Source of the DNA: Arbacia lixula
Taxonomy: Eukaryota > Echinodermata > Echinoidea > Arbacioida > Arbaciidae
DNA: 64,000 bases
Direction of reading: 5' to 3'
Assembly (NCBI GenBank): GCA_963669155.1
Contig: OZ022576.1
Span: 23,169,178-23,233,177 of the forward strand
Position numbers and translations under genes: made by a program. Below the pieces are notes generated by a model. The model was not told the DNA's origin and searched no databases. It saw nothing but the letters and a program-made list of their open reading frames with translations. This document shows, piece by piece, positions 14,777 to 60,972 of the stretch (position 1 is the stretch's first letter; each line of letters opens with the position of its first letter).

Positions 14777-16671
14777 GAGAGGGGGGGGGGGGGGGGTTGG
14801 TGTAGTGTACATGATCTGTGCAATATTCGCTGAGCAAACTTAGCAAGAATTCGCCACGAGGTGTCGCTCATACTATTGATGTCGTCGTTTTCCGTTGGTA
14901 AAGATTATGGTGAGGCAGTCGAACATGCATTCTGCGATTGTACTTATGATAACAGTATTTGGGAATGGTTACAGCAGAAGTCTGTATTAATTTTACGGGG
15001 AGAAGACGCGTGTTGCCATACAAAAACAAAGCATAACATTGTCATGATTGTCTTACAATGGCATACTTTAAATACGTCTTCCACCAATTTAACGAGTGTC
15101 ACAGTTTCTATTTCGAATTGTTATCTAAATGTAAAGTTTATTGAAGAAGTATTTTTAAAGAAATTATTTCGTTTGAGAAAGAAATATCTATAATCAGAAT
15201 TTGGTTGCATTAATCCATTAGTTAATTATTCCGACGGTTCATTATTGCGAATGCTCGTTAATCATGAAATTAGATTATTATCTAATCAAATTATAAAATC
15301 ATTATCATTTATCAACATACCAATATCATTAAGATATTTTATTTTATTTCATTCTGTGTGGCCAGAGTCGACATGCGCAAGTTCTTTAACCCGTACAAAA
15401 TGATCACGATGACATCAGATGACAACCCGCGAGGACAGTTAAAGCGGTTCTACAGCGCCAAGGCCCGGGCCATGACCATCATTCCTCCAGCCTTGCGCAA
15501 GCTCCTCCCGACAAAGCAGCTCTTCAAGAACCAGTTCTTCAAGACATGCTCCGTGGTCGGCAACAGCGGCATCCTGCTTAACAGCTCATGTGGACCCAGC
15601 ATCGACGCCGCTGACTTCGCCTTCCGATGCAACTTCGCCACCGTGCAGGGCTTCGAGAACGACGTCGGGAAGAAAACCGACGTCATCACGTTCAACCCCA
15701 GCATCTTAGACAGATACTATGGGAGGTTGAAGACACACGAGGACAAACAGCGATTTGAGAACAGGTTGCTTAGTTACGGGAAATACATGTTGTGGATTCC
15801 AATATTCTCGACGCATTACGTGAGCAGGACAGTACAGGGAGTGCTAGACTTTTTCAATGAACATATTAAGAGGTTTAAAAACGTCCAATTGGCATTCCCG
15901 GGAAACATTTTGCCAGATATATCAGAGTAAGTTTGTTCCTGGTTAAATTGCTCATGTTTGTAATGTTTCTTTTTTTTTTTTATTTCGGATATTATCAATA
16001 ATGCTTTATTTCAGCTGAATAACAATTTTTGTTTTTGGTGAATACAATTATCTTCACCTTCTTTTTCTGGAAATGAAAATAATGAGAGTTACGCATGGAT
16101 CACATAACTTTTGTCAGGGACAATAGTTTATACTTCGACCCTCGCACGTGTTTAGATAAGATAATTCAAACATATTACTTGCCGTTTGAATAAATAATAA
16201 CGATACATTTATATCGATAAGTTTTATTTTGACATGAGAACCATTATTACATGTATTTGGTGAGCGGTGAACTTTGCTGATCAAATTGTTCTGCGGCAAA
16301 CATAATAAACATTTTTACTTTGACAAGTTGCTTGAAAGAAATGTATGCTATTTAAAAATAATGTTTTTTTCTTTGTCAGCTACTGGCTGACGCAAGGGAT
16401 CGACGAGGAGCGGATAAGCACTGGGCTTCTCATGTTCAACATAGCAGCAACGATCTGCGACGAAATCCACATGTACGGTTTCTACCCCTTCCCAGAATTC
16501 CAAGATTCCTCCATCCCTTATCACTATGACGACAAGCGGAGAAACAAAACGCGGGACAATTACGACTACGGGTATCGGAGATTCCACCAGTTACCGGACG
16601 AGTTTGTATTGTTAAAGAAGATGCACAAAGCTGGTGTTGTCAAACTTCATTTAGGAAAATGTCCAACATGA
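14525..16671 (+). CDS. ST8Sia-type alpha-2,8-sialyltransferase, 3' part (3 exons)
   Basis: The visible exons are 14525-14683, 15366-15926 and 16380-16671, joined by GT-AG introns in continuous frame (336 residues plus a split codon, ending in TGA). The family transfers sialic acid from CMP-sialic acid onto sialylated glycans in the Golgi lumen. Sialylmotif L starts at 15547 (CSVVGNSGILLNSSCG, followed by DAADFAFRCNF). Motif S is at 16417-16485 (STGLLMFN...CDEIHMYGFYPF). A motif III-like IPYHYDD follows, then motif VS, with H at 16585 and E at 16600 in HQLPDE. The CDEIHMYGF form is typical of the ST8 branch. A potential N-glycosylation site (NRT) lies in the first visible exon. The cytoplasmic tail and signal-anchor helix are missing: no convincing exon for them was found between 1 and 14524, so the gene probably starts outside the window or in an exon too short to recognise. 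The family is very likely correct; the subtype (ST8Sia1-6) is not resolved. Confidence 0.9.
14728..14797. repeat. GA microsatellite and G run in a sialyltransferase intron
   Basis: (GA)n followed by a long G run, in the 682-bp intron between the first two visible exons. Confidence 0.9.
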
Positions 16672-18842: not shown

Positions 18843-20169
18843 CTATTGAGTCATGGGTATTGCTACCGACGCACTCTGGGCCGGCAGGGGTCCCCCGGGA
18901 GTCCCTCCTTCATGGAGCACCGTCTCTCCAACTCCTGCGGTCTCCCGATATGCAGGAGGCGGCTCCGGGAGCGCCACGACGGCTCCAGCTGAGGCAACGT
19001 TCTGCTGCCCATGATTCCCCGGACCGCCCGCAAAACCAGCATTGGTCATACCACCAGGCGGCGCCGCAATGGTCGTCAGCATGATGACGTTACTCGTTGG
19101 CGACGCTTCTTGTCTCAGCGCATTCTGCAGCCGCTCGTTCATCTCATGTTTCTTGTTGGCCTCTTTAACCAGGAAGGCCATTTGGATGAGATCTGTCACC
19201 CACCCAATCCCGAGCAAGCCAAGGGAACACAGGTACATAATCGCGCGGGATTTGTTCCCCAGGTATAAGTGATGCAGTCCGAATATTCCGAAGGGAACGG
19301 CTGTCATGTATGCGTCGGAGTTTTTGATCGGATCAACACCAACCACCGTACCTTTCTTCATGAGCATAGCGTCCGTGTTGGCCTTTTGCACCATGTAAAA
19401 TAGCCGGAAGAGGTCAATAAACCACCCAAATCCGAAGAATCCCAAAGACCAGGCATGGAATTTGCCGTAACGTTTCCTCCCAAGATAGAAATGGTACAGA
19501 CCTGAAGAAAAACGCATAACAAAGTCACATACGAGTTAATCTCATGAAATTTAAATCCTTTAAGAAGAAATAAAAACTTACAATGCACAAAATTAGTTAA
19601 CATTTTCTAGTTCATATCTGTTAGTTTTCACAGCATTCGAAGGCTGTTGAGAGGCGATTCTGGAGAATGGATTTTACATTCTGATTAGGAAGTGGTGTTA
19701 ATGTAGCCAACATGAATATCGTTTACAACGTACCAAAGAGGCCAGACGGGGGAAGCCACAGCAGGAAGGCGTCCGAGAACGTTCTCTCCGTGAGGTGGCC
19801 TGGGTACTTGTAGCTGTTGACCCAGTGGCCCTTTGCCCTGGCCTCCGACGTGTCCTCATTGCACCTCCTCAACAGGCGCCCAAGCCGAAACCAGTCCACC
19901 ACCCAGCCGATGCCGGCCAGCCCCAGCGTGCAGGCGTACACGGTGCCGATGAAGGTCCTCCGCAGGTAGAAATGGTGGGCGCCGAAAATCCCCAGGAAGG
20001 GCATGTAGGTCAAGAGGGCGGCGACGCCAAACTTCCGGTCCTTTTCGTTGCGGCAGGGGACGACGAAGACCTCGTTGGTGTACTGCGGCATGCGGGTGCG
20101 TTCGTACTCTTGTTGCTCCTGGAACTGCTGCTGTGCTGTCTGTAAATCTGGTGCAGCCACTTGCGTCAT
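18843..20169 (-). CDS. triple TM2-domain protein with PPxY motif (cluster gene A)
   Basis: Two exons, 20169-19734 and 19501-18843, are split by a 232-bp phase-1 intron inside a Gly codon and give 364 residues. The start ATG has A at -3. The protein has three TM2 repeats at about residues 45-103, 132-190 and 205-262. Each shows the pattern GxxGxHHFYL (or a close variant), a glycine-rich second helix ending GIGWV or GFGWF, and an acidic D-x-F-R-like end (DWFR, DLFR; TDLI in the third). That predicts six membrane helices. The short N-terminus is Gln/Glu-rich. The C-terminal tail is Gly/Ala/Pro-rich and carries one PPAY motif near residue 329, a class I WW-domain ligand. The TM2 family is real but poorly characterised, and I do not know this protein's function. 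It is a paralogue of the genes at 25491-27741 and 31595-33278, with an intron at the same point of repeat 2. Confidence 0.88.
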
Positions 20170-21373
20170 GATGCTCGGAATTGGTTTGTTACACTATGCA
20201 CAAATGGAAAGATACACACCACCTCTAGAGGCGAGTCCGTGTAAGCATTAACGCTCTGCGATATCCCCTTTACCGTGTCTGAGGGAGGAACGACTAAACT
20301 GTTCGGTCGGAATTACAGTGGAAAGGTTACACTGATAAAACATTTACCCCCGTAGCATGTCATCGACGATATCGGAGGACTGCTGCAAAGCCATGGTAAT
20401 CAGTTGTATTGATGTTCACGATATAAACCTTAAATTAGAAAATTGGTAATGAAGATGTAAGGAGAGCATTCAAGACTTTTATGATAGTCGGCGCAACGCC
20501 TAGAGTGGATCGTAATCATCTGCGTATGGAAAATGACATCACCTGACTAGTAATGGCTAACCGAAAATGCCAAAGTTTCTCGCCTTTGCCAAGCATGCTA
20601 AGTACCTCGCGCTCAAGGGTCGTTCTCGGCGTTAATCATTAAACGTCACCCAACATAAGGACCTTTGATATACACCCTGCCTTATCACCGACAACTGCAA
20701 ATATCCTCTCTGCTTATTGCGTTTACCATTGTCTTTTATTATTGGTTATGATGATTAGGTAAACCTTCGTCTTAAAACAGCAAATATCGTCACCCAGACA
20801 CAACCGAAATGTATGATAATAAGCTTACAACGGGATAGTTAACTTAGATTAATTAGTAGTAGGAACAGAATATCATTGGCGAGACGTCATCACCGTTACC
20901 TAGGGACTCTTCTGATAACAACTACTCCTCGATATTATATTGACTTTGTCATGAGAAAATTATCGAAGACAAATTAATTTGCATCGACCGAATTCAAATA
21001 ACAACCGTGATCAATAACCGAAAACAAACACGTAACCATAAATGTTGAAGTCAATATCATATAATATCACGTATTACTAGTTTACACGCTAACCCTCTGG
21101 AGAGGTTATTGATTCCCCGCATATGTGTGCATCAATGTTACATGCAAAGCGCAACATAGAGATCGTTTGTCTGGTGGATAGTAGTTAAATTACGCGAATA
21201 TTCCATCTGTTTCGCCATCGTATTAAAGTACTTCTATAATCTCTGTGAGCATTATCGTGTTTCTGCACTAGTGCTGCTCAAAAATAGCGTACAACAAAAG
21301 TTTCAAGTTTGTCTGGTACAAGTTGAATGGAAAAACATTGTGCAAACAGAATCGTCATCTCAAACTTGCTATA
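20170..21373. other. upstream region of TM2 gene A, no gene seen
   Basis: Should hold the gene A promoter. I see GACGTCA at about 20883 (one base short of a full CRE) but no TATA box placed near a start. Confidence 0.45.
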
Positions 21374-22215
21374 AATACTTGGGAAGAGAATTGAAGATGA
21401 AAAGGAAATAGCTGACGCCTTTAACTACTATTTTTGTAATATTGGTGTAAATATATCAAAACAAGTCCAAAATGGGTCAAAACACTTTAAAGATTATTTG
21501 AACCCAAGAACACCTGTAAGCATATTCTTTACCCCTACAAACGAATCGGAGATCATCGAAATCACTAAACGTCTTAAAAACACGTCTTCCCGCGGTCATG
21601 ATGGAATTAGTGCGAATTTTTTAAAGAAGATTATCTATTGTATTTCTAAACCACTTTGTCATATATTTAACCTTTCGCTTTGTTCTGGGGTTGTCCCGGA
21701 TTGCTTTAAAATAGCTAAAGTAGTCCCTGTGTATAAAAAGAAGGAAGAAAGTCTCATTGAAAATTATCGACCCATTTCACTCTTATCAGCTCTATCAAAG
21801 ATTCTAGAACGAATCGTATATAAACGACTGTATAAGTACTTGATGGATAACAATGTATTGATAAATGAACAATTTGGGTTTAGGCCTTTATTTTCAACAG
21901 AGACTGCTTTACTTCATGCCCTGGAGAAAATCACCTCGTTCTTAGATAAGAAAGAGAAGCCTCTTGCTTTGTATATTGATTTGAGTAAGGCGTTCGATTC
22001 ATTGGACCATGACATCTTACTGAGCAAACTTGATCTCTATGGAATCCGGGGTATACCACTACAATGGTTCAAAAGTTACTTACATAATCGTAAACAATAC
22101 ACTACTTTTAAAGGTGTCAACTCAAATACCATGTTGTTGAATTGTGGGGTTCCGCAGGGAAGTATCTTAGGGCCACTCTTGTTCCTTTTATATATAAATG
22201 ACATCATAGAGCAGC
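21374..22215 (+). mobile_element. non-LTR retrotransposon fragment (reverse transcriptase), truncated at both ends
   Basis: An open frame runs from just after a TAA near 21371. It encodes the thumb-proximal and palm parts of a LINE reverse transcriptase: EDEKEIADAFNYYF, then KVVPVYKK, NYRPISLLSALSKILE, QFGFRP, LYIDLSKAFDSLDH and VPQGSILGPLLFLLYINDI. This motif order is that of the Jockey/CR1/L2-like lineages. No apurinic endonuclease domain precedes it. The reading changes to unrelated sequence right after YINDI, so the catalytic YxDD box and everything downstream are missing. It is a dead fragment lying between TM2 genes A and B. The exact clade is not determined. Confidence 0.85.
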
Positions 22216-23420
22216 AGTTTTTCCTGGCACACAAAGGGTTAATACTATGTTGGGTTTCTTTCACCACGTTATGGTATTTCTTGTGGATTCGCCCGAGTAC
22301 AACTTCCGTATAATTATGTTGTCCTGCGTGAGTATCATCAAGAGAGAAATGTGAATTCATTTCGACAGTCCTTCGTTTTCTTTCATTTTTCTAATTTCCT
22401 CCTCACCTCATTATTTGGATGAATTACCACAATGCTACCGAGAGTTTTACAATAGACAATTTTCGTCATGTATGCTAAATTTATACACGTGGTTCCAACA
22501 AAACGTTACTCATGGTAACCCCAAAGCAACAACTAATACATGTAGATTCAGAGTACGTTACATCCATAGAGTACCAAGTGTGACGTCATTTGAGCACTAT
22601 TGCCAAGACAACTGGTTCCAAACAATGCGGGTAGAGCAAGCAGCGGTGATCACAACGGGGACTGTAATTGTAAATGCCCGATGCTAGCCCGATAGACAAT
22701 GTCGGACAGAGATTGTTTAGAGCAAATTGTTTTGCTTGTATGACGACACCTCTTCGGTACTCTATTGATACTGTATCACGAAATACATGTGAATGAAGTA
22801 CTGTAACAAGTCACTAGAAAGTCACACTATGATCATGACCTTTTGTTATGCGGGTACAATTTCAAACGGTCTTTTTGAAATTTAGTCCGCGTAACAAAAA
22901 AAAAAACATGTTCATCAGTGTTCATAGTGTTAGAGGGAAAGTTGTGAATACATTACGCAAACGGGTTATTGGTTACTACCGCCCCACTATTGAAACCTGC
23001 CGAAAACATCTGTGTATTGTGTGTTGCCATGTCAGAGACAGGCAGAAGCCCAGAGTTTTCCATTGTATGCAGGCTTTTCGGAAAGTAAGCTACGTACTGT
23101 CCGGAATAGAAAGAACACCTCTTTTTATTTTGTTACGATGAATTCAGATAAGACTGCAAGATCATATTGGAATTTTGGGAAGTTTAGGTATGAGTATGCA
23201 TCTAGTTGGAAATATATAAATTAAGAATTGTTCTGTTGAAAAGTGCAACGTTTTAATAGATTTTGAATGATTACCCTGTGGTTATCCCGGTGGTTATTTC
23301 AGGTGTTATATCCTGATATCAGGAAAAGGCAATTCTAATTAGAAGTGCTCACATTGCGGAAAAGATGGAGAGGTCGTCGGCATAGTGGGGAAAATCTATT
23401 TGTAAAATCAATATACCAGG
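22216..23420. other. intergenic, no gene seen
   Basis: Begins at the abrupt end of the LINE fragment. Contains a CRE palindrome at 22581-22588. GGCACACAAAGGGTTAA near 22229 recurs near 37614, next to the assembly gap. Confidence 0.5.
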
Positions 23421-23599
23421 GGGGTGTTTCACCAAGCTGTTCGTCAGTTACGAACGACTTTACGAACAACTGGTGACCCCTTCTTGTGCTAAATCAGATT
23501 CTCAACGAACAAAGTGTGGTATCGCATTTAGCACAAGAAGGGATCACCAGTCGTTCGTAAAGTCGTTCGTAACTTACGAACAGCATGGTGAAACACCCC
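23421..23599. mobile_element. 179-bp palindromic MITE, family 4, copy 1
   Basis: Ends GGGGTGTTTCACCA and TGGTGAAACACCCC are perfect inverses. Internal arms contain GTTCGT...TTACGAACGACTTTACGAAC and GCACAAGAAGGG in inverted pairs. Confidence 0.8.
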
Positions 23600-24821
23600 A
23601 AAACTTTAATCCCCGTGCTGTTTATATTTTTTTCTTTGTGTGTTATAAATATCATTACATAATGAGCTTTTGGAGAAGAGTATTTGCCCCTTGAAACAAA
23701 AAGTTTTCCGTTCATTCGGTATCCTTTCATTCCTTAATAAGTCCTCCTCTCCTTACTCTTATTTTTCTTCTTCCCATTCCTCCCCTATCCCTTTGTTTCT
23801 CTCTTACGCTGTCCTTTCCTCCTGTTTTTTTTCTTCTTCATCCTCCATCTCCCTACCCCTCGTTCATTTCTCACCCTCTCCCCACGTGTCTTTGTAATGA
23901 TATGCCCGATTTCTATTTTCCTTCTATTTTAATCTTCGTTTTAATCATCTTCTTACACGCACACATATTATAGATTCACGCTCTCCCACACAAACGAAAA
24001 ACACACACACACGCACGCGCACATACACATACTTGTACACTCAAGCTCTAACTCATCCTACCAGTTTATTGCTCACTCATTATATATGTCTCTATTTGTC
24101 CGCACTTCCTGCTCCGTAACTTATTAACTACGTTCAGTTAATAATGAAAAGAAACTCTCTCATTTCCCCTCTCAATTACAGTTTTCCATGTAACCATGGT
24201 AACGTTCCACGTTACGATTTTATTGCATTCACTTTGTCAGTATCTTACACTTATTTTTAATCATTTTTTAGTGCAACGATAACAAGCACAGTGACGTAAT
24301 GTGTCCAACTTATGTTATACAGCCGTTAAAAATAAAAGCTGTCATGTAAGAAATTTCATAGGTGGAAGGTGTTCGCAGATTTCTACATTTCGATATTTTC
24401 TCAGTTAAACGTCAACGAGATCAGCGACGTCGCATATCTATTAATGTATCTATAAGAACAAGTTGCCAGATAAAACACTCCTTCTCATGGTGGAAAATGT
24501 TTGCGGGTTTTAGATAATGGAGTTTTACATATACATGTACCAAATAGTTCCGAAAACACTTCTCTAAGAACAAAGTAAGAAAGCAGAAGGAGACATAAAG
24601 GAACGGTAAAATATGTTCTATTCTATACTGCAAAACAGTGTCAAATGTGTCAAATGTAACCTACACGAATGTGCAACGTGATATTCACAATATATTTACA
24701 CATAGCTCCGAAGTTAATAAGCAATATTCCAGCTATACATTACACATTTTATGAGATATACAATTCAATGTGAGTTAAGACATATTATTAATTGCAAATA
24801 ATTTGTATACTGGAAGATAAG
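23600..24821. other. intergenic, no gene seen
   Basis: Pyrimidine-rich 23740-23890, then AT-rich sequence with a short CA tract near 24000. No exons recognised. Confidence 0.5.
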
Positions 24822-24827
24822 TTTATT
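24822..24827 (-). terminator. candidate poly(A) signal of TM2 gene B
   Basis: AATAAA on the minus strand, about 660 bp after the stop at 25491. If it is used, the 3' UTR would include the long ATC/CAT microsatellite at 25028-25373. Confidence 0.25.
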
Positions 24828-25027
24828 AACATCTAAATAGTAAGCAGGATAAGCAGGATTTCCCTTCCAAAATATCCAATATAATTCGATGAAAAGTCAT
24901 ATAATCATGTTTCCAGAATTCCTTTTTAAGTTTACAATTGGCTCAAGTCAACTGATGCTCGTTTTGTTGTATGTAAACACTACACAGTTATTTCAGAAAA
25001 GGTTTAATGGTACGAAAGTCTCCCCCT

Positions 25028-25311
25028 CCTGACAACCATCATCACGATCACCATCTTCTTCTCCTTTATCATCATCATCATCATCATCAACATCATCATC
25101 ACCATCATCATCGCATTCGTCATAATCAGCATCATAAACGGTATCATCATTGCCATCATCCCCATCACCACCACCTTCCCAATCGTCATCATCATCCCTG
25201 TCATCACCATCATTATTCCTATCGGCACAAGTGTCACCATCGCCACTATCATCACCATCATTACCAAACCAAAACCACGACCGCCATCGTCACCATGTTC
25301 GTCATCATCAG

Positions 25312-25370
<59 letters not shown>

Positions 25371-25373
25371 CAA
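25028..25373. repeat. ATC/CAT trinucleotide microsatellite
   Basis: Interrupted CAT units from about 25028, ending in a pure (ATC)n run of about 60 bp at 25310-25370. It lies downstream of TM2 gene B, possibly in its 3' UTR. Poly-His and poly-Asp frames over it are artefacts. Confidence 0.95.
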
Positions 25374-25490
25374 TAATCAGTATGCGTCGTCAATGTTTTT
25401 AACTGTCTCGTGACGCTGAGTAGTTCAATTCAAGATGTCGTAGAATGTCGTCATATTTACACAGAGAGTTGTCATTTCTTCGGTTTGAGT

Positions 25491-26248
25491 TCAAACAACT
25501 TCTCCCTTTCCCTTTGGTTGGGGGCAGGCACCGGGCAGGACCTGTTCACCTTCCCCAGCCTGGGCCCTGTAAGCTGGCGGCGGCTCGTTGGCATGACTGG
25601 TGACGCCCGACGCTCCCGGAGACATGTCACCACCACTGGGGCCCCCAGGGCCAGCGACATACCCCTCGTTTGTCGCGGGCACCACGATGACGGTCGTCGT
25701 TTGCTGACTGAGCTGTTCGTTGTTGGCCAGCGCGCCGGCAAGTCTCTGCGTCAGTTCGCGATTCTTGTTTGCCTCGGCGACGATCATGGGCATCTGGAAC
25801 ATGTCCGCCAGCCAGCCCAGCCCGAACACCCCCACGGTGCAGAGGAAGAGGAGGCCTCGCCTGGTGTTCCCCAAGTAGAAGTGATGCAGTCCGAAGATCC
25901 CCAGTGGGAATGCAAGAGTGTACGCATCGCAAACAGAGTACGGCGGCTCGCTGACCCGCACCCCTTTCCTCATCATGGCGATTTCGGCGTTGGCCCGGCG
26001 GACCATGGCAGGGAGCCGACAGAAGTCCAGCAGCCAGCCCAGACCAACCCGGCCCAGGGTTGCCGTGTGGTAGATTCCGTATCGGCGGCGGCCTAGGTAG
26101 TACTGGTAGACACCTGTGCAGGAAGCACATCGTGAGAAAAACTCTTTTTTAGCCGCGGTTTATGGTGAGAGATTTACTTCGCTTACAGCAATGAAAATCA
26201 TTCTCAAAACAACATAGTTGCGTCCCTCTCCCTTTCTTTCTTTCTCCC

Positions 26249-26294
<46 letters not shown>

Positions 26295-27741
26295 TCTCTC
26301 TCTCTCTCCCCCACTCTCTCTCTCTCTCTCCCCTCTCTCTCTCTTTGTGTGTGTCTCTGTCTGTCTCTTTCCCCTTTAACTCCTCCCCCTTTAAAAAACA
26401 ACAACAACAACAACCAACCAGTTCATAAAAACGCCATCATCAAAGCTACTAAACCTACGTCAATGCCATGCCTCTTGACTTTTTAAATCCCATTTCATAA
26501 TTTAAATTCAAGTGTTTTTTTTTTTTTACTAATAAATATGGAGAACAAATAGAATATAAAAGTCATCATTTACCGAACAGGCCGACGGGAGGGAGCCAGA
26601 GCATGTAGGCGTCGCAGAGGGAGATCTTGGTGAGGGGGAAGGGGTACTTGGGGCTGCGGAGCTGGTAGCCGCGGATTTGGTCATCTCGGGCCTGATCGTT
26701 ACATTTCTTCACCAACGACTTGATCCGAAACCAGTCGATGAGCCAACCGAGGGCAAACAGACCTGCAAGAGTGATGTTATTGAGATGAATGATGGACTCA
26801 TACAAAGAAGCAATTTCGCGGAAACAACAATCCCACTTCCTTTCATTATTTCCCTCTCCTCTATCACACGCACTCCTCTGAAAGATTATTATTATTGTTA
26901 TTACATGTATTATTATCATTATTTTTATTATTATTATTATTATTATTATCAATCTTATCATTATTATCATTATCATTATTATTATCAGAAGTAGTAGAAG
27001 TCGCAATTAACTAATATCCAAATGACATACACATCAGCGACACTGTATTTTCAGCAAATTAGGATGTTCAATTATGATTGTGAAATGTTAAAGAAAAAGT
27101 TTAAGCTTGGCATGAATCACTTCAAATTGTACAATTTTGCTTAATGTCGAGGCGAATGAGAGCCGACAGAAAATGAGACCGACCTAGGGCTCATGCCTCT
27201 GGATCACTTCATCACATCGTCTTGCCAATTCCGTAATGGATGACGATGTACTGATATTAATGAACAAAGGCGAGTGAGACTGACCTAGGGTGCATGCGTA
27301 GACGCAGCCGAAGAACCTCCTGTTGAGGTAGAAGTGATGCAGACCCAGCATGCCTAGGATGGGGACGCAGAGGATGACGGCCAGAGTGGCTGACTTGGTG
27401 AGGTCGTTGGGCGTGGCATGGTAGGGCACCACCTGCACCTGGTCCAGCTGGAGGGTGGGGCCTGGCTCTGTGTTCGGGGGTGGGCCCGGTGGGAAGCTGG
27501 GCCCGGCGGGCGGGTAGATGGGGTATTGGGTGCCGTAGTGAGTGGCACCGGGTGGCGGTTGGTGGTGCTGGGGAGGTTGGTGGTGTGGCTGTTCGGGTGG
27601 CGGGTGATGTGGCTGATGGGCCGGGTAGGTCAAGGGAGGCTGCTGGTTAGGTTGAGGATATTCCCTGAGTGATGATGGGTTCTGTTGGTACGTGCTGGTC
27701 CCCTGAGCGTCATCCAATGGCACAGTTTTCTCGGTCGCCAT
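25491..27741 (-). CDS. triple TM2-domain protein with Pro/His-rich N-terminus and PPxY motif (cluster gene B)
   Basis: Three exons, 27741-27285, 26762-26574 and 26113-25491, joined by two phase-1 introns, give 422 residues. The ATG at 27741 (MATEKTVPLDD) is preferred; the frame is open two codons further up but offers only a GTG there. The first ~100 residues are Pro/His/Gln-rich and low in complexity. Three TM2 repeats follow: GMLGLHHFYLNRRFFG to WLIDWFR, GLFGVYQYYLGRRRYG to WLLDFCR, and GIFGLHHFYLGNTRRG to WLADMFQ. The tail holds one PPAY motif (about residues 394-397). Compared with genes A and C it has an extra intron in repeat 1 after ACTLG, while the repeat-2 intron is shared. Repeat 2 has Cys in place of the usual residue before Arg (DFCR). 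Function is unknown; the PPxY motif suggests binding to WW proteins such as NEDD4-type ligases. Introns contain TTA and CT microsatellites. Confidence 0.88.
26241..26370. repeat. CT microsatellite in TM2 gene B intron 2
   Basis: Long (CT)n with CCC and GT interruptions. Confidence 0.93.
26883..26990. repeat. TTA/ATT microsatellite in TM2 gene B intron 1
   Basis: Interrupted (ATT)n run inside the 522-bp intron. Confidence 0.93.
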
Positions 27742-28122
27742 CTTCACTCCGTTTTCCGAGTTTAGTCAAGATGAAGAATCGACAGTTAACCCCTTCTTTA
27801 CTCAGTCAAATTAAAATGGTAGGCCTATTTCAAACTAATAAGCGTTCTGAGAAAATTATTCTCTTTGATAGCCGGTATGACATAAGCAGGCTTTTAGCGA
27901 AAACTATCCATGAACTATCTCTAGCTCCGAACGAGCTAAATAAGTACAAATATACTTGTACATCACCGGGTGCAATGGTTCCCTACATAACCTCACACTG
28001 CGCTCGCTGCGCTCCGTGAAGGTGCTTTTATACTTCGCCGCCAATATTTCAATATTTTATGCTGATCTTCTGTTGATCGAGTCCTCGTGACTACTCCACA
28101 TCGATGGCATGTGTTTACCCTC

Positions 28123-28132
28123 GTCACGTGAC
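28123..28132. promoter_or_regulatory. perfect CLEAR-type E-box GTCACGTGAC
   Basis: This ten-base palindrome lies about 380 bp upstream of the TM2 gene B start codon. In vertebrates this sequence is the CLEAR element bound by TFEB/MITF-family bHLH-ZIP factors that drive lysosomal genes. The sequence match is direct; use as a regulatory site is inference. Confidence 0.4.
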
Positions 28133-28180
28133 CTGAGAAGATTGTGCCGTAGCGTGTGCATCATAGCGCATATTTAAGTA

Positions 28181-28188
28181 TGACGTCA
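28181..28188. promoter_or_regulatory. CRE palindrome TGACGTCA upstream of TM2 gene B
   Basis: Perfect CREB/ATF consensus about 440 bp upstream of the gene B start and 49 bp beyond the CLEAR-type E-box. The pairing of the two sites suggests a compact promoter or enhancer, but it is untested. Confidence 0.4.
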
Positions 28189-30377
28189 CTGTCATCATGC
28201 GATGGAAGTTATTATGTCTAATGTAAACACAAGCATATCATCTAAAGCAAACGGGGGGCCTCGAAATTTATCTCCAACCGCACTGATATGATATCAATAT
28301 TGGTTTTATCCCTGGTGTTATTCAAATTCCTGTATGTAGGCGAGAGTTTATATGCTTTTGCGGGGGCGTACCTTTTTCTGACTAGGGGTAATGTACCTGC
28401 GACCGTTTTTGAAATGGTATTATAGGTATGTCCAACATTTCGACATATGGCACTGTGGGGTAGAATTAAATAACATAAATCAATGTTAATCAATATCTCA
28501 GAAATTGATAAGAACATGTTTGACATGTTTGAAATGATTAGTGAAGTAAGATAAGGTTCTTTCAAGTTTATACTATTGGTAGATTCGCTTGAACACAATG
28601 AACAATCATTTCAATTATTATGACGCAAACAAACAAAGATACATTAATATGACATAAAAAGCGGCAAGTTAATATTAAAAAAAAACATGATTCAAATATG
28701 TTTTTAAAGGATTTAAAAGTTATTATAAAGAAGATACATCCTTGTGATCAATATCATCATTATTGTCATCAGTACACTTCCACCATTATCGCCGTCTATA
28801 TTATACCTGATACCTGATAGGACCATCACAATTACCGTCATCACCACCATGACTATCCTAGTTTCCCGCCTGTAGTGTCCACATGTTATGAATCCCTGTC
28901 AGCCAGCGAGCAGTCAGCGAGTCTGGATCAATAGGTCTGAAATGCAGAGACTACCTCTAATGTGTTTGTACATGAAGGTACCTCACGACAACCATGCAGC
29001 AAGTCAGGATGTAGCCTCACTTCCAGACACATATTTTAACAACTGTGTCACAGTAGATTTTGTACGTTCAGACTAAGCAGACCTTTGTATTTGATTATAT
29101 CTTGGGTTCAAGTTGATATACTTACGGTAGATGTACAAGTTCCTTACTTCAATCAATGACGATGCTTTGTATTTATAATGATCACGCCATGATCACGCCT
29201 GTATTGATGATCATAACGTTATGCATCCGATAGCCTCACGGATTTTTTTTTGTATCGACGAAGTGATGATAGTGATAATCATGATAATGATTGTAATAGT
29301 GATGGTGATGAGGATGATGATGAGGATGATGGTGGTGGTGGTGAAGGATGGATGGTGACGATGATGACGGTAATGGTGATGATAAATAGGACTTTAAAAC
29401 GGAGGGGAGACGGGAGAAAAGCAAGAATCAGAAACGAGCGGTCATCACTACTAATGGTGCACGCGTGAACTGATATCACCCCCAAATTGCTATTATAAAA
29501 CCAGAAGACACAAATTCATTTAAATACAGCAATGAGCAGGCCGACCTATCCAACTACGTTTTCCCCAAGCTTTAAAATCCCAGTACATCATACGGTTTAG
29601 CGGACAAATGACGTCATATTCTAAGAACAGGCATACCAAGGCACACCCCTTTTCCTCACTCACAGTCACGAGTCAGATAGTCTTTGTACAATTCTACATT
29701 AATAATTTTACATGAATAGCTCTATGGTATACGAGTATGAATCTTGAAATGCATATCGTGTACGGTTAAAGTGTTAATCGGTGATCAGTGATTTGATACG
29801 ATTGGTAAAGCCTTCATGGACACCAAAATAATGTTAGTGTAATTAATGTACGCGTATTTTCACGTCTTATTGAGTCTTGAAAATGGTCTTCCCAATATAA
29901 TCACGGAAACAAGGAACACAGATGCATTTAGGCCTTTTGGCTATTTTTGGCTAATTGATCGAGCTCAGCAGTGTAAACACTTTTTATTCAAAATGCAGAT
30001 GTTCCAGGGTGTATGGAATTGTCATTCAACCAAGAGCTTCCCTGAATTCTTGAAAAAAATATAACTTATGATAAAGATGGATTTTGAATTTAAATTTGAA
30101 AAATAAAATCACAACGCGTTCATCGGCAAAAATCACTCTCTCTATTCTCCCTCCCCCCCCCCTCTCTCTCTCTCTCTCTTTCTCTCCCTCTCTTCCCCTT
30201 GTTCTTGTACTTACAAGTTCACTTTGAATATTACATTCCACCTGATTCGATCAGACTAATGTTGTTAACTGTTCTTTAGGCCCATCAGCGTTGTGATTTT
30301 TGTAGGCAAGTGGAAGATAATTTATAATCTTTTGCGTTTAAATGTTTTTCAATCATTATAATTGTGAATCCTCTTAC
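28189..30377. other. intergenic between divergent TM2 genes B and C
   Basis: Contains a CRE at 29609-29616, GAT-rich simple sequence at 29270-29390 and a CT tract near 30150-30195. No exons recognised. Confidence 0.5.
28890..29010 (+). repeat. dispersed repeat with GTCTGAAATGCAGAGAC core, copy 2
   Basis: Matches 7262-7385 over the GAGTCTG, GTCTGAAATGCAGAGAC and ACGACAACCATGC blocks. Confidence 0.5.
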
Positions 30378-30877
30378 TTAAAGAGATAGTTCACCGTGAA
30401 ATTAAGTTGGTTTCTATAGAAGCAGACACATGAACGAAACATATTTGTAAAGGTTTTATGAAAATCGGTCAAAGGATAAGAGAGTTATGATCTTTTAAAA
30501 TTTTGATTTTGTGACATCACGTGCGAGGTGCTCTCCTATACATGTATATGTTGTGTACAATTTTTTATTTAAAAGAGCATTTTCGCAAAAAGATATGCAT
30601 CAAAAGATGCATCATTAGAAATACGCTATTACACAAATACCTGTATGAAGACAAATCATTCCGTTGTCAAAAACAGAAAAAGGGCAATTTATGAAATTAT
30701 ACTGCACACAACATTATGGGAGAGCACCTCGCACGTGACGTCACAAAATTGAAATTTCAAAAGATCATAACTTTCTTATCCTGTGACGGATTTTCGTTTA
30801 ACCTTTGTTAAAAATTATGTTTCTTCAATGTTTCTGATTTTATTGAAACCAACTTACAGGATGAACTATCCTTTTAA
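30378..30877. mobile_element. TTAA-flanked inverted-repeat MITE, family 5, copy 1
   Basis: The ends AAAGAGATAGTTCACCGTGA and the inverse of GGATGAACTATCCTTT lie next to TTAA on both sides. Subterminal arms CACGTGCGAGGTGCTCTCC and GGAGAGCACC...GCACGTG pair over a long stretch. The right arm carries a perfect CRE at 30736. It lies between TM2 genes B and C. Confidence 0.75.
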
Positions 30878-31226
30878 CTTTCAGATCACAGGAATTATGC
30901 AGGTGGTTCACGCAATGTTAAACAATTATGTTCTACAGGATTAAGGGACGCGCTGCTTTGTCACCAGCATGCGCTTTGTCTCGGTATATATATAAATGAA
31001 AATCAGTAACAGTGGCAGGGTGTAGACGGTAAAGGTCTACATTTTGAAGGCCTTTATTTCGATGTTTATTCTGTCCTCTTTCCACGGGAGGGACCCCTCT
31101 GCCAGTGATGACTCCCTTTTTTCCTACATGATAATACGAGGAAACCGAAGTCAAGATAATTTCAGATACAATTAGGTTCAACCATGCAGTCATTATGGGC
31201 CCAAGATGTAATTGTCAAAGGGATTC

Positions 31227-31228
31227 TT

Positions 31229-31260
<32 letters not shown>
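31227..31260. repeat. T homopolymer upstream of TM2 gene C
   Basis: About 33 consecutive T residues, 335 bp upstream of the start codon. CGATTGGCT (a CCAAT-type box) and TTACGTCAT follow at about 31340-31363 and may belong to the promoter. Confidence 0.9.
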
Positions 31261-31263
<3 letters not shown>

Positions 31264-31594
31264 CATGTATACAGTATATATAAAAGCGTTCGCGAGACCT
31301 AGCTTTGATGTCCATGTTGTTCATGCAAACGCGATGAGTTCGATTGGCTTACAATTACGTCATGGTTTAATATCGGAGCATGTGCGGATAGGCGTTTGTT
31401 TACCTCTGGCAAAGTCACGGGATCCTTACAATAGTTTGTGCCTATTATACTGTATACTATACTGTAGACTCGTCTCTCGATTTTGTACGCAATAGTCCTA
31501 AAGCCGAACTCGTAAAGTACATGTTCTAGTAATCGAGAAGCAAAATAACAGAGCCTTCAACTGCCTGGTTAGTGAGAACGAAGAAGTTAATGAA

Positions 31595-33278
31595 ATGGCG
31601 GGGAGTGAGGCCAAGGCAGATCTGTGTACCAACGAAGCGGAGACTGGAGCTGCGAACCACCCGTCACCATCGGGCTACCCACGACAGGAGCAGGCTCAGG
31701 CTCGGTACCCACCTCAGTATGTACCGCCGCAGTATTACCAGCAGCAGCCGGCGCCGGGATCGGCAGGCGCCTGTCCGCCGATACCAGGCGCTCCGCAGCC
31801 CGCCGTTCTCCCGTACGACATGGCCCAGGTATCCATATTGCCCTTCACGCAGAGCGCTATGATGAAACACAAGTCCCTACCCCTGGCTCTTCTCCTCGGT
31901 GTATTTCCACTCTTTGGGCTCTTTGGGGCGCATCATTTTTACCTCAACAACATTTTGCTGGCGTGCTTGTACGTGAGTACGATGGGGCTCTACGGAATCG
32001 GCTGGTTGGTGGACTTGTTTCGGCTCCCGTGCCTGGTGAAGAGGACCAACGACGAGCTGGAGGAGGTGAAGGAGAAGGGATACTGGCTGACGTGCAATGA
32101 CCGCTTCATAACTCCTATCACCCGGAAGATCTCTCTTGTTGATGCATATCTGTGCTGGTTGCCTCCATTTGGATTTTTTGGTGAGCTCCCGTCATTAACA
32201 TTGCCCATGATTAGATACTATTACAATTATATTTACTTCCTTAACAAAAAGAGTGAATAACATATTCAAGTGGCACACAGCGAAAAAAAATACACGGAGG
32301 CTCAGGCAGTCAGGGAACTTTATCTCCAGTATAAATGCCAAAAGAGCCCCTAAAGACCAAAGAAATATTTTGATCATGGGCCTACATGTTGGGTATACCC
32401 ATTTTATTGCTTTCTGCTGTGGCACATAACAATTGAATCTGGCAAATAAAGCATTTCCAAATTTGTTTTGTAAAAAGGTAGCTTGAGTATACCTTGCATG
32501 AATTTATTGTTTGAAGATTAAAGGATGAAATTGTGTTTCTAAGGTATCTAGATATTGATTTTCCAGATAACATGAGTTTTCCAGAGTCATTCAAATTTTT
32601 TAAAAGTGTACATGATAGTTATCTCCTGCATTCAATGGCAGCAACAAGATATCTATGCATGATTAATCAATGTGTCTGTGATGTTCTTCTGCCTTCTGTT
32701 TTTAATTCACAGGTGTGCATCAGTTATATGTGGGGCGGACCCGTTTTGGTATCTTCTCAATGTGCTCCTTTGGGCTCCTCGGTGTCGGGTGGATCTTCGA
32801 CTTCTTTCGCATGCCGTACCTCGTCTACAAAGCCAACAAGTACATCAGCCAAATGAGGGCGGGCATCACTGTCAAGCCCCCCTCCTTCTCCATCTTCGAC
32901 TCCTACCTCTGCGCCTTCCCCCTGGGCCTATTTGGGCTGCACCACTTCTACCTTGGTAACACACGGCGGGGGCTGCTGTACCTCTTCACGCTGGGTGTGT
33001 TCGGGCTGGGCTGGCTCCTAGACTTCTTCCTCATGCCCATGCTGGTCTCTAGGGCAAACAAGGATCGGGAGGAGCAGCTGAGTCTGTTAGGCCAACGGGA
33101 GATATACATTCCAGCAACAAGGCCAGTGTATGGGACAGCACCTCCGGCATGGTCGGGGCCCGGGCCCAATACGGTAGCAAGTGCCCCTCCAGAGGCCCCA
33201 CCAGCCTACGCCCCTTCAGCAGCAGCTGGTGAGGTCACCGAAAAGGACAGCGCACAGCCTCCTGCTTACCAAGTATAA
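31595..33278 (+). CDS. triple TM2-domain protein with four PPxY motifs (cluster gene C)
   Basis: Two exons, 31595-32180 and 32713-33278, with a 532-bp phase-1 intron in a Gly codon of repeat 2, give 383 residues. The ATG at 31595 has a strong context (G at -3, G at +4). An out-of-frame ATG starts 5 bases earlier in a weak context. The N-terminus is Pro/Gln/Tyr-rich with two PPQY motifs (residues 39-42 and 44-47). Three TM2 repeats follow: GLFGAHHFYLNNILLA to WLVDLFR, GFFGVHQLYVGRTRFG to WIFDFFR, and GLFGLHHFYLGNTRRG to WLLDFFL. The C-terminal tail adds PPAY at 358-361 and 378-381, so PPxY motifs sit on both sides of the membrane domain. If the six helices are all membrane-spanning, both ends face the same side. 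It lies head-to-head with gene B. Function is unknown; a membrane adaptor for WW-domain proteins is a reasonable hypothesis. Confidence 0.9.
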
Positions 33279-36649: not shown

Positions 36650-37378
36650 GATCTTTCAGTTGCATGTATACCAGAGTCATGGTTGTTGCAGTCACATCTT
36701 CAAAATGTTGTGGAATAAATGGTTAGATTCAGAGGCAATTTTAGCTCTGTTTTTCAGTTTTTTTTTTTTTTAAAGACATGAATATGGTATCTGTCCATCC
36801 GAGATGAGGAAGGGGGGGGGGGGGGGTGGACGGAGTGCAGGAGGAAGATAATGTAGGAGAAATAGGGAATGGGACTAGGATTTAAGGGATAAAAGAAGCA
36901 GGAAGAGGGGAGAGCGAGTTGGAACGGGAAGAGGTGTGAGAAAGGGTGGGGGGGGGGGGGGGGGGGAGAAAACAGGATGAACATGACATGAAAACAATAG
37001 GTTACGTTGTAACGGTGCTCGCATTTGACGTCACATAGCTGGTGCCGATTTCAATTTATGATCACATTTCTACCATACGCCTTACTTCCCGTCAAGAATT
37101 GTCGTAAGTTAAAATCATTAACATGGGTTTCTGCTTTCTTTGTTTCTAGCAACTTTCTGTTGCACCAGGGAACTGGTGGGACGAATCATCCCTCCAAGTC
37201 TATATTCGCCTGTCTCCCGTTATAGATTGGAGTAATCTTTCGAGTGCAATGCAGTTTGCATATTTTTGTTATCACATTTTACAGGCTTTCATCTCGGTTC
37301 CTGATCATTTATCGATCAATGTAGCATCGAAAGTCGCACACTGCCTGGCAGATGGACAACACACGCTGCTGATACTGG
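36650..37378. other. intergenic up to the gap, no gene seen
   Basis: Contains G runs (36811-36826, 36948-36966) and a CRE palindrome at 37026-37033. The Rab 3' UTR may extend into or across the gap. Confidence 0.5.
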
Positions 37379-37578
37379 NNNNNNNNNNNNNNNNNNNNNN
37401 NNNNNNNNNNNNNNNNNNNNNNNNNNNNNNNNNNNNNNNNNNNNNNNNNNNNNNNNNNNNNNNNNNNNNNNNNNNNNNNNNNNNNNNNNNNNNNNNNNNN
37501 NNNNNNNNNNNNNNNNNNNNNNNNNNNNNNNNNNNNNNNNNNNNNNNNNNNNNNNNNNNNNNNNNNNNNNNNNNNNNN
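37379..37578. other. assembly gap of 200 N
   Basis: All 200 bases are N, which looks like a fixed-size scaffold gap rather than a measured one. True length is unknown. Confidence 0.99.
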
Positions 37579-37733
37579 ATATACACACAACTCCCATGGA
37601 GCAGCATTATGCCAGGCACACAAAGGGTTAAACAGTATGCGTCAACGAATCGGCAAACTTCTTCAATGTCGTTCTTATCATTCTCTTCGGTCATACAAGA
37701 CTTGTATTGACAAGTTCCAAAGTATCGCATCAA

Positions 37734-39560
37734 CTAAGAACAACAACTACTTAGCGCCTTTCTCGAGGTTTCGTCGTCATCGTCGTTATTGTTGTCGGCA
37801 TCGTCGCCCTCGCTTTCCTCCATGATCTTGTCGCGCAGGAGCTGGAGATGGGGCGGGAAGGCGGTGATGTCGGCTGACTGACGTCGACTCGTGTCGTAGT
37901 CCTTGACTGTCATGCCCGATGCGCTTGTACTGGAGGCGAGGGAGATGAGGGCCAGTGCCACCCGCAGGAAAGCCTCCGAGACGCCTGTGGGAGAGGGGAA
38001 AAGGATGGGGTGGGGGCGTTGGAGAGTAGAGCAAATCCATCAGGGCGTTTTTACACACATATGCCTACGTTCCTCATTACAGTTTCATTATTTGGTATTG
38101 GAGTTGCTTCTTTAAGATCAAATCATAAGCCTTTTATAATACAGGCACTCATGCGCCAGATGTTGATGTAACAATTACATATGGCGCATTACGCTTTATG
38201 TTTGATTTTATTTCAATTATAGTCGTTATAATTAAGCCTAGTAAGTAATACATACATTATCTCTTCTGACAATAGATGTGCCATCAAACCTGACTAGGGA
38301 GAAAAAAATCAGCGACCACATTACGCCTGGTCACATGTCTGAGTCATGGGGGCCTTTAAATATTCACCTTCTTTTGGAGTAAAGCATCTTTCATCTATTC
38401 ACATTGTCCCTAATAAGTCCAGTAAATCCAGTCAAGGGTATTCTTTGATATCCACCAATAAGCATGAAGAGTAAGCCTTAATTACGGGTTCGGTCCTTTG
38501 GGGGTCCTGCTGAAGTAGATATTTCATTGGAAGTACATATGCAAGGGAATATTATGTGACCCTCTCAAGAGATTTCGATTAATCTGAGCTCAAAACAAAA
38601 TCACGATGTTGGCATCTAGTGTAAGGCAGCCCGGTTAGAGCTCGCTATGAATCGTGGGGTACATATCATCTCCGCGGACCCAACCAATAATTGCCCCCCC
38701 CCCCCCCACACACACACACACACATACACACATACTGATTACACAACCATCATGAACAAGGGTGTACCATGGTAGGGTCCATGGGTATACAAACATGAAT
38801 AGGACGCTCGTTTGCAGGAACGCACCCCTTGGTCCGAAACCACATAAACTAGATAACAAAAAATACACTGTTTGTACTTTAATTTTGATTAACATGAGAC
38901 ACATTATTGGCAGGTCTCTGTGCCTGTTTGTTGGATGTATGACGCATTCATCCTTGGTCCTACAGGCACATGTTATCGAGACTGAGTCTGGATGGTATTC
39001 TTTGCCTTTGATTATTTGATGGAACCGGGAAGGGTGCAGTGGACCGCCTCCTACAAGTAGGCTGGCTTCCAGGCTTTTGAATATGGATAATTCAAACTTT
39101 AAGATGAGAGTCTAGAAATCACAAGACTAGTCACTCTTTCATTATCTCCCCTTCTCTCTCCGTGTTTGGGCGAGTCAAAGACGAAATTGAGAATAATTAG
39201 TCTACAACACTCAGACCCGTTAATTGAAAATGCAGTTTGGAGTGAAAATGCCAAGCAGCCTGAAACCCAGACTACCTCCTAAGATGTCGTATTCACCTTC
39301 ATCCTTGAGTGCCGAAGTTTCGAAGAAAAGTGCGCCGATGCTGGCGGCGTACATCAGACCCTGTTCCGACGTCACCTGCCGCCGATCTGATAAGTCCGAC
39401 TTGTTTCCTAGAACACACATCACTGCACAAAAGAAAAACACACATGCACCGTATTGTAATAATAATGATGATAGTAATGATAGTAATAACGTTTACAAAG
39501 ATAATGATGATGATAATAATAATGATAATAATAATAATGATAATAATACTAATAATAGTG

Positions 39561-39624
<64 letters not shown>

Positions 39625-39664
39625 TAACAATAATAATAATATTAATAATAATAATAATAATAAC

Positions 39665-39699
<35 letters not shown>

Positions 39700-40094
39700 T
39701 AATAATAATAATAATTATTATAAGAATGATTCTAGAATAATGACCGCCCCAGATAGGCCTCCGAGAAAAGAGGCCCCCAATCGAAACCCCATCCCAACGT
39801 CCATGACCGCCCCTTTATTTGCTCCCCCGGAATAACATTTGTGCTAGTTGTATCTTCTGCTATATCACTACATTATGGATTATCCGCAAACTGAAATGCC
39901 AAATGGCCCATGATGATATCAGAACAATCATGAGAATGGAAGTATGACTTACCTATAGGACCATCAATCTTTTCTTCCAGCTCTGTAGAAGGAAAACGAC
40001 AAAGGAGAATAAGATTATTTTATATGTCGAGCAGAACACAGTAAGATCACACACTTTTCATTTCACATTTTCCATACATCATAATAGTGCTTGG

Positions 40095-40132
<38 letters not shown>

Positions 40133-40518
40133 GCTGTTGTTGTTCTTGATCTTGTTCTTGTTGGGGGGGGGGGGGGGGGTATCATGATATGAAAAATCCA
40201 AAGGTATTCATTCCGCAATAAATCAAAAGCGGAAAAGTTCTTGATATGAAATAGGCCCTATAAGTTGATGTGTAAGAAAAAAAAATATGAAATCCACATA
40301 CACCTGTAGAATAATTAAAAGTTCCTGACAGTTGAAGTGCCTATGACACAAATCGTGCATGGTCTATTCTCCTATTGTTAATATATAGACTTTATCTTTG
40401 CAATATATCATGGAAACAATAGTTCATCGAGTGAGAGATATAGAGGGGTGAGAGTTAAGGGAATAAAGATACAGAGAGCAAGAGAGGGAGAGAGAGAGAA
40501 GGGGGGGGGGCGAGAGAG

Positions 40519-40559
<41 letters not shown>

Positions 40560-47835: not shown

Positions 47836-60972
<13,137 letters not shown>

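Follow-up and report, generated by a model that had tools for sequence, protein, structure and literature searches.

Gene models and TM2 matches

Three neighbouring genes, A, B and C, each predicted to encode three tandem TM2 repeats, lie in the window, that is, the whole 64,000-nucleotide stretch of DNA that was analysed (Table 1). All four introns in the three models have GT-AG borders and keep the reading frame (4/4), and only gene B among the window genes has an intron within repeat 1. In hmmscan searches against Pfam, the spliced proteins matched TM2 (PF05154) with E-values of 1.4e-26 (A; 92.8 bits), 5.1e-29 (B; 100.7 bits) and 2e-30 (C; 105.2 bits), all above the curated cut-off of 27.9 bits. 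Three TM2 stretches individually passed E 0.01 in each of the spliced proteins (3/3). The clean splicing and the Pfam matches confirm the first-pass annotation, which had described three adjacent triple-TM2 genes, and the predicted anatomy is near certain.

Table 1. Predicted features of genes A, B and C, in window coordinates
Feature	Position	Strand	Description
Gene A, spliced model	20169-19734 + 19501-18843	-	364 aa
Gene A exon 1	19734..20169	-	N-terminus, TM2 repeat 1 (Pfam match 19888-20040), start of repeat 2
Gene A intron	19502-19733	-	Phase 1, Gly codon matching that of gene C
Gene A exon 2	18843..19501	-	Remainder of repeat 2, repeat 3 (Pfam match 19185-19313), tail
Gene A tail PPAY (PPxY)	18948..18959	-	Shuffle chance 0.012; invariant in A, B and C
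Gene B, spliced model	27741-27285 + 26762-26574 + 26113-25491	-	422 aa
Gene B exon 1	27285..27741	-	Long P/H/Q-rich N-terminus, start of repeat 1 (Pfam match 27283-27396)
Gene B exon 2	26574..26762	-	Last part of repeat 1, start of repeat 2
Gene B intron in repeat 2	26114-26573	-	Phase 1, Gly codon matching that of gene C
Gene B exon 3	25491..26113	-	Remainder of repeat 2, repeat 3 (Pfam match 25797-25940), tail
Gene B tail PPAY (PPxY)	25569..25580	-	Shuffle chance 0.020
Gene C, spliced model	31595-32180 + 32713-33278	+	383 aa
Gene C exon 1	31595..32180	+	N-terminus with two PPQY, repeat 1 (Pfam match 31871-32020), start of repeat 2
Gene C N-terminal PPQY..PPQY pair	31709..31735	+	Shuffle chance 0.009
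Gene C intron	32181..32712	+	Phase 1, Gly codon of repeat 2
Gene C exon 2	32713..33278	+	Remainder of repeat 2, repeat 3 (Pfam match 32904-33029), tail
Gene C tail PPAY	33198..33209	+	Aligns with PPAY of A and B
Gene C second tail PPAY	33258..33269	+	Immediately ahead of the stop

The last exons of A, B and C are 42-51% identical in pairwise comparison. With pS near saturation, dN/dS was about 0.23 for A/C (pN 0.40, pS 0.72) and about 0.15 for B/C (pN 0.35, pS 0.74); for A/B (pN 0.38, pS 0.76) pS was saturated and the ratio not computable. Because pN is below pS, A, B and C appear to be real, constrained coding sequence, and they look like intact genes as predicted from the genome.

A second cluster and the origin of the repeats

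A PF05154 profile search of the same genome returned 21 matches, 6/21 of them inside the window. Another large contig, C12, carries three genes, D, E and F, with four TM2 repeats each, distributed as one plus three stretches over two exons per gene; all six of these exons exceeded the PF05154 cut-off. E and F are recent duplicates of each other. One of the 11 profile matches on C12 contains a TGA, which falls shortly before the point where the open frame of F exon 2 starts, within the modelled intron. The earlier picture of a local triplet holds for the clustering of A, B and C, but the genome has a second cluster, and since its members carry four repeats, three is not a fixed repeat number.

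A phase-1 intron at one Gly codon of repeat 2 is common to all six genes (6/6; A-C and D-F). In a tree of 31 rows and 59 columns, six rows being outside (bacterial or viral) sequences and the backbone open, the repeats grouped by position. AU tests of gene-wise grouping, run on A, B and C, rejected all of the clades A1-A2-A3, B1-B2-B3 and C1-C2-C3, which rules out a separate multiplication of repeats within each of these genes. Since the repeats group by position and gene-wise grouping is rejected, an ancestral triple-repeat gene was later duplicated: the triplication preceded the gene duplication, as had first been proposed. A putative clade uniting repeat 1 of both clusters has a support of 25/0.

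The SDAY/CDAY/VDAY lead-in had also been taken as a shared linker of A, B and C. It is not peculiar to them and proved to be the start of TM2 helix 1, and single-TM2 proteins of Streptomyces have VAYLWW or similar at the place of DAY. Since the lead-in belongs to the domain itself, and bacteria have its AY too, it gives no independent evidence of common origin and was dropped; that evidence is the shared intron position and the tree.

Relation to known TM2 proteins

The animal TM2 set described in PMC8714088 and PMC10409296 consists of three TM2D genes and DNAJC22/Wurst. TM2D1, TM2D2 and TM2D3 (almondex, amaretto and biscotti) are, like A-F, animal integral membrane proteins with a TM2 domain (PF05154). 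They differ in having a signal sequence, a single TM2 whose loop carries a DRF motif, and only a short tail (PMC8714088), whereas A-F have three or four HH-type TM2 repeats without DRF and arms that are mostly long and proline-rich. The 21 repeats carry HH, YH, YQ, HQ, HY or HR where DRF would lie (DRF in 0/21), and no signal-like segment was found in A-C, in which no stretch of 19 residues ahead of the first helix of repeat 1 exceeded 1.2 on the Kyte-Doolittle scale. Three single-TM2 exons of the DRF/DRI type (on C3, C5 and C9) and a DNAJC22-like gene (on C20) sit elsewhere in the genome; given this, the lack of DRF and the presence of three or four TM2 domains instead of one near the C-terminus, A-F are not members of TM2D1-3.

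The C20 locus has a TM2 at L018:4800-5534 and a DnaJ domain (PF00226, E 8.9e-17) at L018:8865-9149 on the same strand, which we infer to be exons of one gene. Like A-F, DNAJC22/Wurst has an HH-type TM2 (GLHHFYLGR), and it falls on their side of the repeat tree, but its TM2 is single and is accompanied by further spans and a J domain; no DnaJ match was obtained in spliced A-C or in the D-F exons. The DNAJC22-type TM2 (HH motif) is a better animal comparison than the TM2D1-3 proteins (DRF motif) named at first. The multi-TM2 repeats are separated in the tree from the three exons of the DRF/DRI type, and their side of the tree also holds the C20 TM2, three actinobacterial TM2 sequences and one viral one; an Opitutia TM2 falls with the DRF type, and a Myxococcales TM2 between the sides.

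The collections searched covered prokaryotes and viruses and, among animals, this genome. Single-TM2 proteins of bacteria and archaea (Streptomyces, for example) reach 59% identity to repeat C1 over the TM2 and share the AY lead-in, HHFYLGR and GLGWL.D with A-F; in contrast to A-F, a single TM2 was present in 44/44 matched prokaryotic and viral frames. Conservation in the alignments resides mostly in the repeats. In an alignment of 20 of the 21 repeats (all but D2) with the DNAJC22-like TM2, Y, D and glycines are invariant and His is nearly so. PDB sequence searches with the repeats gave zero matches at E up to 1, and NCBIfam had nothing for three multi-TM2 sequences (C, D exon 2 and E exon 2). 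Among the papers listed in searches of the open-licence literature, none described multi-TM2 proteins, in agreement with the original suggestion of an under-described family. Our results point to a family of animal proteins that has hardly been described, known here from one genome, which its mitochondrial code marks as that of an echinoderm.

Predicted topology and arm motifs

Hydropathy and a low-confidence fold predict a six-helix topology for A, B and C. AlphaFold produced a poor model of the last-exon proteins, which hold two repeats (mean pLDDT 52.3, pTM 0.32); in it, each repeat forms a short helix and a long helix, and the tail is disordered. Lys plus Arg counts were higher in post-hairpin segments than in hairpin loops in 20/21 repeats, with one tie, for segments of unequal length (8 residues versus 16-40, some last segments being cut at the construct end). 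The counts, uncorrected for segment length, would weakly favour a cytosolic placement of linkers and tails. Glycosylation sequons outside the tails comprise NSS in the N-termini of E and F and NKS in a linker of D, with a further NKS in a hairpin loop of gene A, on the opposite side from the others; by eye, the tails contain NIT in E and F and NWS in D. According to PMC8714088, TM2D proteins are oriented so that the hairpin loop lies inside and the C-terminal tail lies outside. Should A-F be oriented likewise, the PPxY would be outside the cytosol.

Five of the six genes (A, B, C, E and F) have PPxY in their predicted tails, and none was found in gene D. PPxY is a ligand of the WW domains of NEDD4-type ubiquitin ligases. 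In the three-sequence alignment of the A, B and C last exons, the otherwise divergent tail has PPAY as its longest invariant run, and two copies in the tail of C have a shuffle chance of 0.004. The PPPY in the very proline-rich tails of E and F is not beyond chance when compared with shuffled tails (0.15 and 0.38). PSAP, a TSG101/ESCRT-I ligand, occurs once in each N-terminus of E and F (shuffle chance 0.015 and 0.045); given the recent duplication behind E and F, the two occurrences are not independent. The PPxY motifs of the predicted tails, absent from the first-pass annotation, are the most informative clue to a putative function.

Discussion

We tentatively propose, on the basis of these motifs, that A-F may act on endosomes as transmembrane adaptors of NEDD4-family ligases. 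The tandem TM2 hairpins would anchor the protein in the membrane, endosomal or plasma, and would hold cargo at their sides; the proline-rich arms at both termini would be cytosolic. The tail PPxY could then bind the WW domains of NEDD4-family HECT ubiquitin ligases and, in the manner of NDFIP1/2, ARRDC or WBP1L/CYYR1, bring the ligase to membrane cargo, which would be ubiquitinated and sorted to the lysosome. Through repetition, each adaptor may gain membrane-binding surface or cargo sites that differ from one another. Points that weigh against this role are the lack of PPxY in D, the PPPY of E and F that does not exceed chance, the reported TM2D orientation, the sequons in N-termini, a linker and tails, and the poor fold model. 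Endosomal PPxY transmembrane adaptors for NEDD4-type ligases are an established class, and NDFIP1/2, WBP1L and CYYR1 likewise combine a membrane anchor with PPxY in a terminal tail (PMC11399591); their membrane domains are different, and the putative likeness of A-F to them is one of motif and mode of action, not of descent. TM2D1-3 are reported as hits in a screen of endosomal function and phagocytosis, and Wurst/DNAJC22 reportedly appears to act in clathrin-mediated endocytosis (PMC10409296 and PMC8714088).

The same sources link TM2D proteins with phagocytosis, with signalling through Notch and with the risk of Alzheimer disease, and describe the function of TM2 as unknown (PMC8714088, PMC10409296). 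Six further genes with three or four fused TM2 units are natural multi-module proteins with built-in repeat comparisons. They offer a testable link to NEDD4-type ligases and may suit structural study better than a lone hairpin.

It is somewhat unlikely that A-F are membrane scaffold or trafficking proteins that work through their TM2 hairpins, the tails being incidental. Three hairpins per chain would here replace an assembly of separate TM2 proteins, on the model of TM2D1-3, which are thought to act in endosomal and Notch trafficking. The concentration of conservation in the repeats agrees with such a role, as do the TM2D1-TM2D3 and TM2D2-TM2D3 interactions and shared phenotypes reported in PMC8714088. 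However, the repeats are of the HH and not the DRF type and branch apart from the DRF/DRI-type exons, the four repeats of the C12 sisters indicate that three is not fixed, and the conserved PPAY is left unexplained.

A lineage-specific receptor, channel or transporter is unlikely. Such a protein would have six to eight helices, with a conserved intramembrane Asp and His forming a translocation or ligand site, and would have expanded for an environmental or immune role. Clustered duplication with the divergence seen among the last exons would suit it, as would the invariant Y, D and glycines and nearly invariant His. Single-TM2 bacterial proteins have much the same residues, so these belong to the TM2 domain and not to a multi-repeat pore; moreover, sequence searches yielded no solved relative and the AlphaFold model is too poor for a fold search.

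We consider it quite unlikely that the adaptor proposal extends further, such that these six- or eight-helix TM2 fusions, coupled to ubiquitin and ESCRT through PPxY (and in two members PSAP), represent a covalent TM2D1-2-3 assembly. If they did, TM2 modules would work side by side, and the ancestral animal role of TM2 would be cargo sorting.

Descent from DNAJC22/Wurst, in which the J domain would have been lost and the TM2 duplicated internally to yield an endocytic co-factor, is quite unlikely too. The shared GLHHFYLGR, the position of the C20 TM2 on the side of the multi-TM2 repeats and away from the DRF type, and the apparent endocytic role of Wurst speak for it; against it, actinobacterial and viral TM2 sequences share that side of the tree, and the A-C proteins and D-F exons gave no J domain. 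Finally, misjoined exons (two genes at each locus) or decayed copies are highly improbable: the models are genome predictions and one C12 match contains a TGA, but it takes splicing to complete helix 1 of repeat 2, the phase-1 intron position is identical in all six genes, the modelled exons are open throughout, and dN/dS is below 1 where computable.

Gene models and TM2 loci

The spliced models of genes A, B and C in the window contain no internal stops and all four of their introns are bounded by GT-AG, which bears out the view of the first-pass annotation that these are three real genes. It had also assigned three TM2 domains to each product, and in our Pfam search every one of the three spliced proteins carried three PF05154 (TM2) stretches, helix 1 of repeat 2 being complete only once the exons are joined. 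TM2 was the sole domain above the cut-off in these proteins; a match to DUF6677 in gene B fell below it.

Positions of the multi-TM2 genes (A-C in the window, D-F on contig C12)
Gene	Position	Strand	Length (residues)	Basis of limits
A	20169-19734 + 19501-18843	-	364	splice sites read directly from sequence
B	27741-27285 + 26762-26574 + 26113-25491	-	422	splice sites read directly from sequence
C	31595-32180 + 32713-33278	+	383	splice sites read directly from sequence
D	C12, about 5,572,881-5,570,958	-		open frames only
E	C12, 5,593,648-5,587,006	-		open frames only
F	C12, 5,616,068-5,601,587	-		open frames only

A PF05154 profile search of the 607-Mb genome (590 contigs, with the window on contig C1) scored at least 28 candidates and kept at least 21 at E ≤ 0.001. 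The 21 kept matches, likewise lower bounds, lie in the window (6), on C12 (11, at 5.571-5.616 Mb) and singly on contigs C3, C5, C9 and C20. Genes D, E and F of the C12 cluster have one TM2 in a first predicted exon and three in a second predicted exon, and thus four per gene. One C12 match contains a TGA; this match falls slightly upstream of the F exon 2 open frame, in sequence modelled as intron. Contigs C3, C5 and C9 each contribute one single-TM2 exon bearing a DRF or DRI loop motif, like TM2D1-3, and the C20 locus resembles DNAJC22, stretch L018 containing both a TM2 exon and a DnaJ exon.

Apparently chromosome-sized contigs number about 22, assuming that numbering follows size among the large contigs (C1, 55.6 Mb; C22, 18.2 Mb; C23, 0.6 Mb). 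Contig C590, with 6,000 of its 15,740 bases read, proved to be mitochondrial; in its ND1 frame RKGPNVVGPYG, AAA reads as Asn under table 9 (the echinoderm/flatworm code) and as Lys under table 5, and Asn is the usual residue at that position.

Origin and divergence of the repeats

Repeat 2 is interrupted by a phase-1 intron in all six genes, at the equivalent Gly codon in each (L[LF]G; FFG in gene C). In a tree of 31 TM2 sequences over 59 columns, in which many forks stay open, four sets are each parted from the other groups by a single branch: in A, B and C, the repeat 1s (support 90/83) and the repeat 3s (94/93); across both clusters, the six repeat 2s (79/81); and in D, E and F, repeats 3 and 4 together (97/97). 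Gene-wise clades were rejected by the AU test (A1-A2-A3, p-AU 0.0055; B1-B2-B3, 0.00036; C1-C2-C3, 0.0163). Because the repeats group by position and not by gene, an ancestral gene carrying three or more repeats predates the separation of A, B and C, as had been proposed in the first pass. The common repeat-2 intron and the repeat-2 grouping join the C12 and window clusters. In D, E and F, repeats 3 and 4 appear to derive from a single terminal repeat that doubled, and the data are compatible with that pair corresponding to the A/B/C repeat 3 (p 0.314); the repeat 1s of the two clusters grouped with a support of only 25/0.

In pairwise comparisons of the last exon of A, B and C, pN was 0.35-0.40 against a nearly saturated pS of 0.72-0.76, and dN/dS was 0.23 for A/C and 0.15 for B/C, A/B not being computable. 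E and F, a recent pair of duplicates, have dN/dS of 0.11 in exon 1 (110 codons) and 0.42 in exon 2 (255 codons). Their exons (L011-L014) are 99% and 80% identical, respectively, which could be read as gene conversion or patchwork duplication.

Relatives outside the genome

Repeat-alignment scans found 43 loci, 38 in prokaryote contigs and 5 in viral ones; a profile built from the nine window repeats matches 44 of their open frames, every one with a single TM2. Since the scan pattern was biased to HH/HQ-type repeats and the loci span about 3 kb each, rarer arrangements could be missed. The nearest relative, from Streptomyces, shows 59% identity across the domain to repeat 1 of gene C, which served as the query. 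This single TM2 has the AY lead-in, so the SDAY/CDAY/VDAY stretch that had been described as a linker belongs instead to helix 1. In the 31-sequence tree, the multi-TM2 repeats grouped with DNAJC22-like, three actinobacterial and one viral TM2 (87/96), the DRF-type exons of the genome and an Opitutia TM2 grouped away from them (84/92), and a Myxococcales TM2 fell between the two sides.

Tails, topology and possible function

The C-terminal tails of A and B contain one PPAY each and that of C two, and no other stretch of unchanged columns in the tail part of the A/B/C last-exon alignment is as long as PPAY; gene C also has two PPQY at its N-terminus. The tail of E ends in PPPPYGPPPPYSP and that of F in PPPPYFQ, and no PPxY occurs in the predicted protein read for gene D. 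Shuffled tails reached the observed motif number or more at rates of 0.012 (A), 0.020 (B), 0.004 (C), 0.15 (E) and 0.38 (F), so the tail motif exceeds chance expectation in just three of these five, A, B and C. PSAP, a TSG101 ligand, occurs once in each N-terminus of E and F, two recent duplicates (shuffle chance 0.015 and 0.045).

The repeats contain hydrophobic stretches by hydropathy, although in A and B some of the six helix cores fall short of a simple cut-off. In 20 of 21 repeats, with one tie, the post-hairpin segment has more Lys and Arg in total than the hairpin loop, a difference that the greater length of those segments may explain; the few glycosylation sequons lie on both membrane sides. 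For the protein part encoded by the last exon of gene C, AlphaFold (three sequences) gave a model of mean pLDDT 52.3; repeat 3 appears in it as a short helix (64-79) plus a long one (83-125), and from residue 124 the tail falls below 50. All that we draw from this low-confidence model is a possible helix hairpin with a disordered tail. Sequence searches against solved structures gave no match to the repeats at E ≤ 1.

WW domains bind PPxY, and PPxY membrane proteins such as NDFIP1/2, WBP1L and CYYR1 are reported to recruit NEDD4-family ligases at endosomes or the plasma membrane (PMC11399591). Given these tails and the reported endosomal links of TM2D1-3 and Wurst/DNAJC22 (PMC10409296, PMC8714088), our preferred, though tentative, reading is that the multi-TM2 proteins would act as membrane adaptors for NEDD4-type ligases. 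For TM2D proteins, the published topology places the loop inside and the C-terminal tail outside (PMC8714088), and in that orientation a WW ligand in the tail would lie on the wrong side. A plain TM2 scaffold is somewhat less probable than such adaptors, a receptor or channel is unlikely, and an endocytic factor derived from DNAJC22 is the most doubtful.

Three TM2D genes are reported in each model organism sequenced (PMC8714088), with Wurst/DNAJC22 as a further TM2 gene (PMC10409296). Among the papers listed by our searches of the open literature, a scope outside which most subscription journals fall, none dealt with multi-TM2 proteins; unnamed entries may well exist in protein databases.

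Neighbourhood of the clusters

A reverse-transcriptase fragment (RVT_1, E 2.1e-26) at 21375-22313, between A and B, marks a retroelement within the window cluster. In the long intron of gene F (L013:7175-10000 and L014:1-2703), opposite-strand open frames of 942 and 901 aa are retroelement-like by eye. In a scan of 10 chosen window frames, GT29 sialyltransferase exons (15286-16668, plus strand) adjoin gene A, and two Ras-superfamily genes lie beyond gene C (39223-40906, minus; 52711-57289, plus); both look Rab-like, and the second Rab11-like by eye. At about 37373-37628 of the window, the translation reads X because the underlying bases are N, either masked or unknown. Beside the C12 cluster, a tandem minisatellite (L009:265-729) reads in one frame as VETGWQL repeats.
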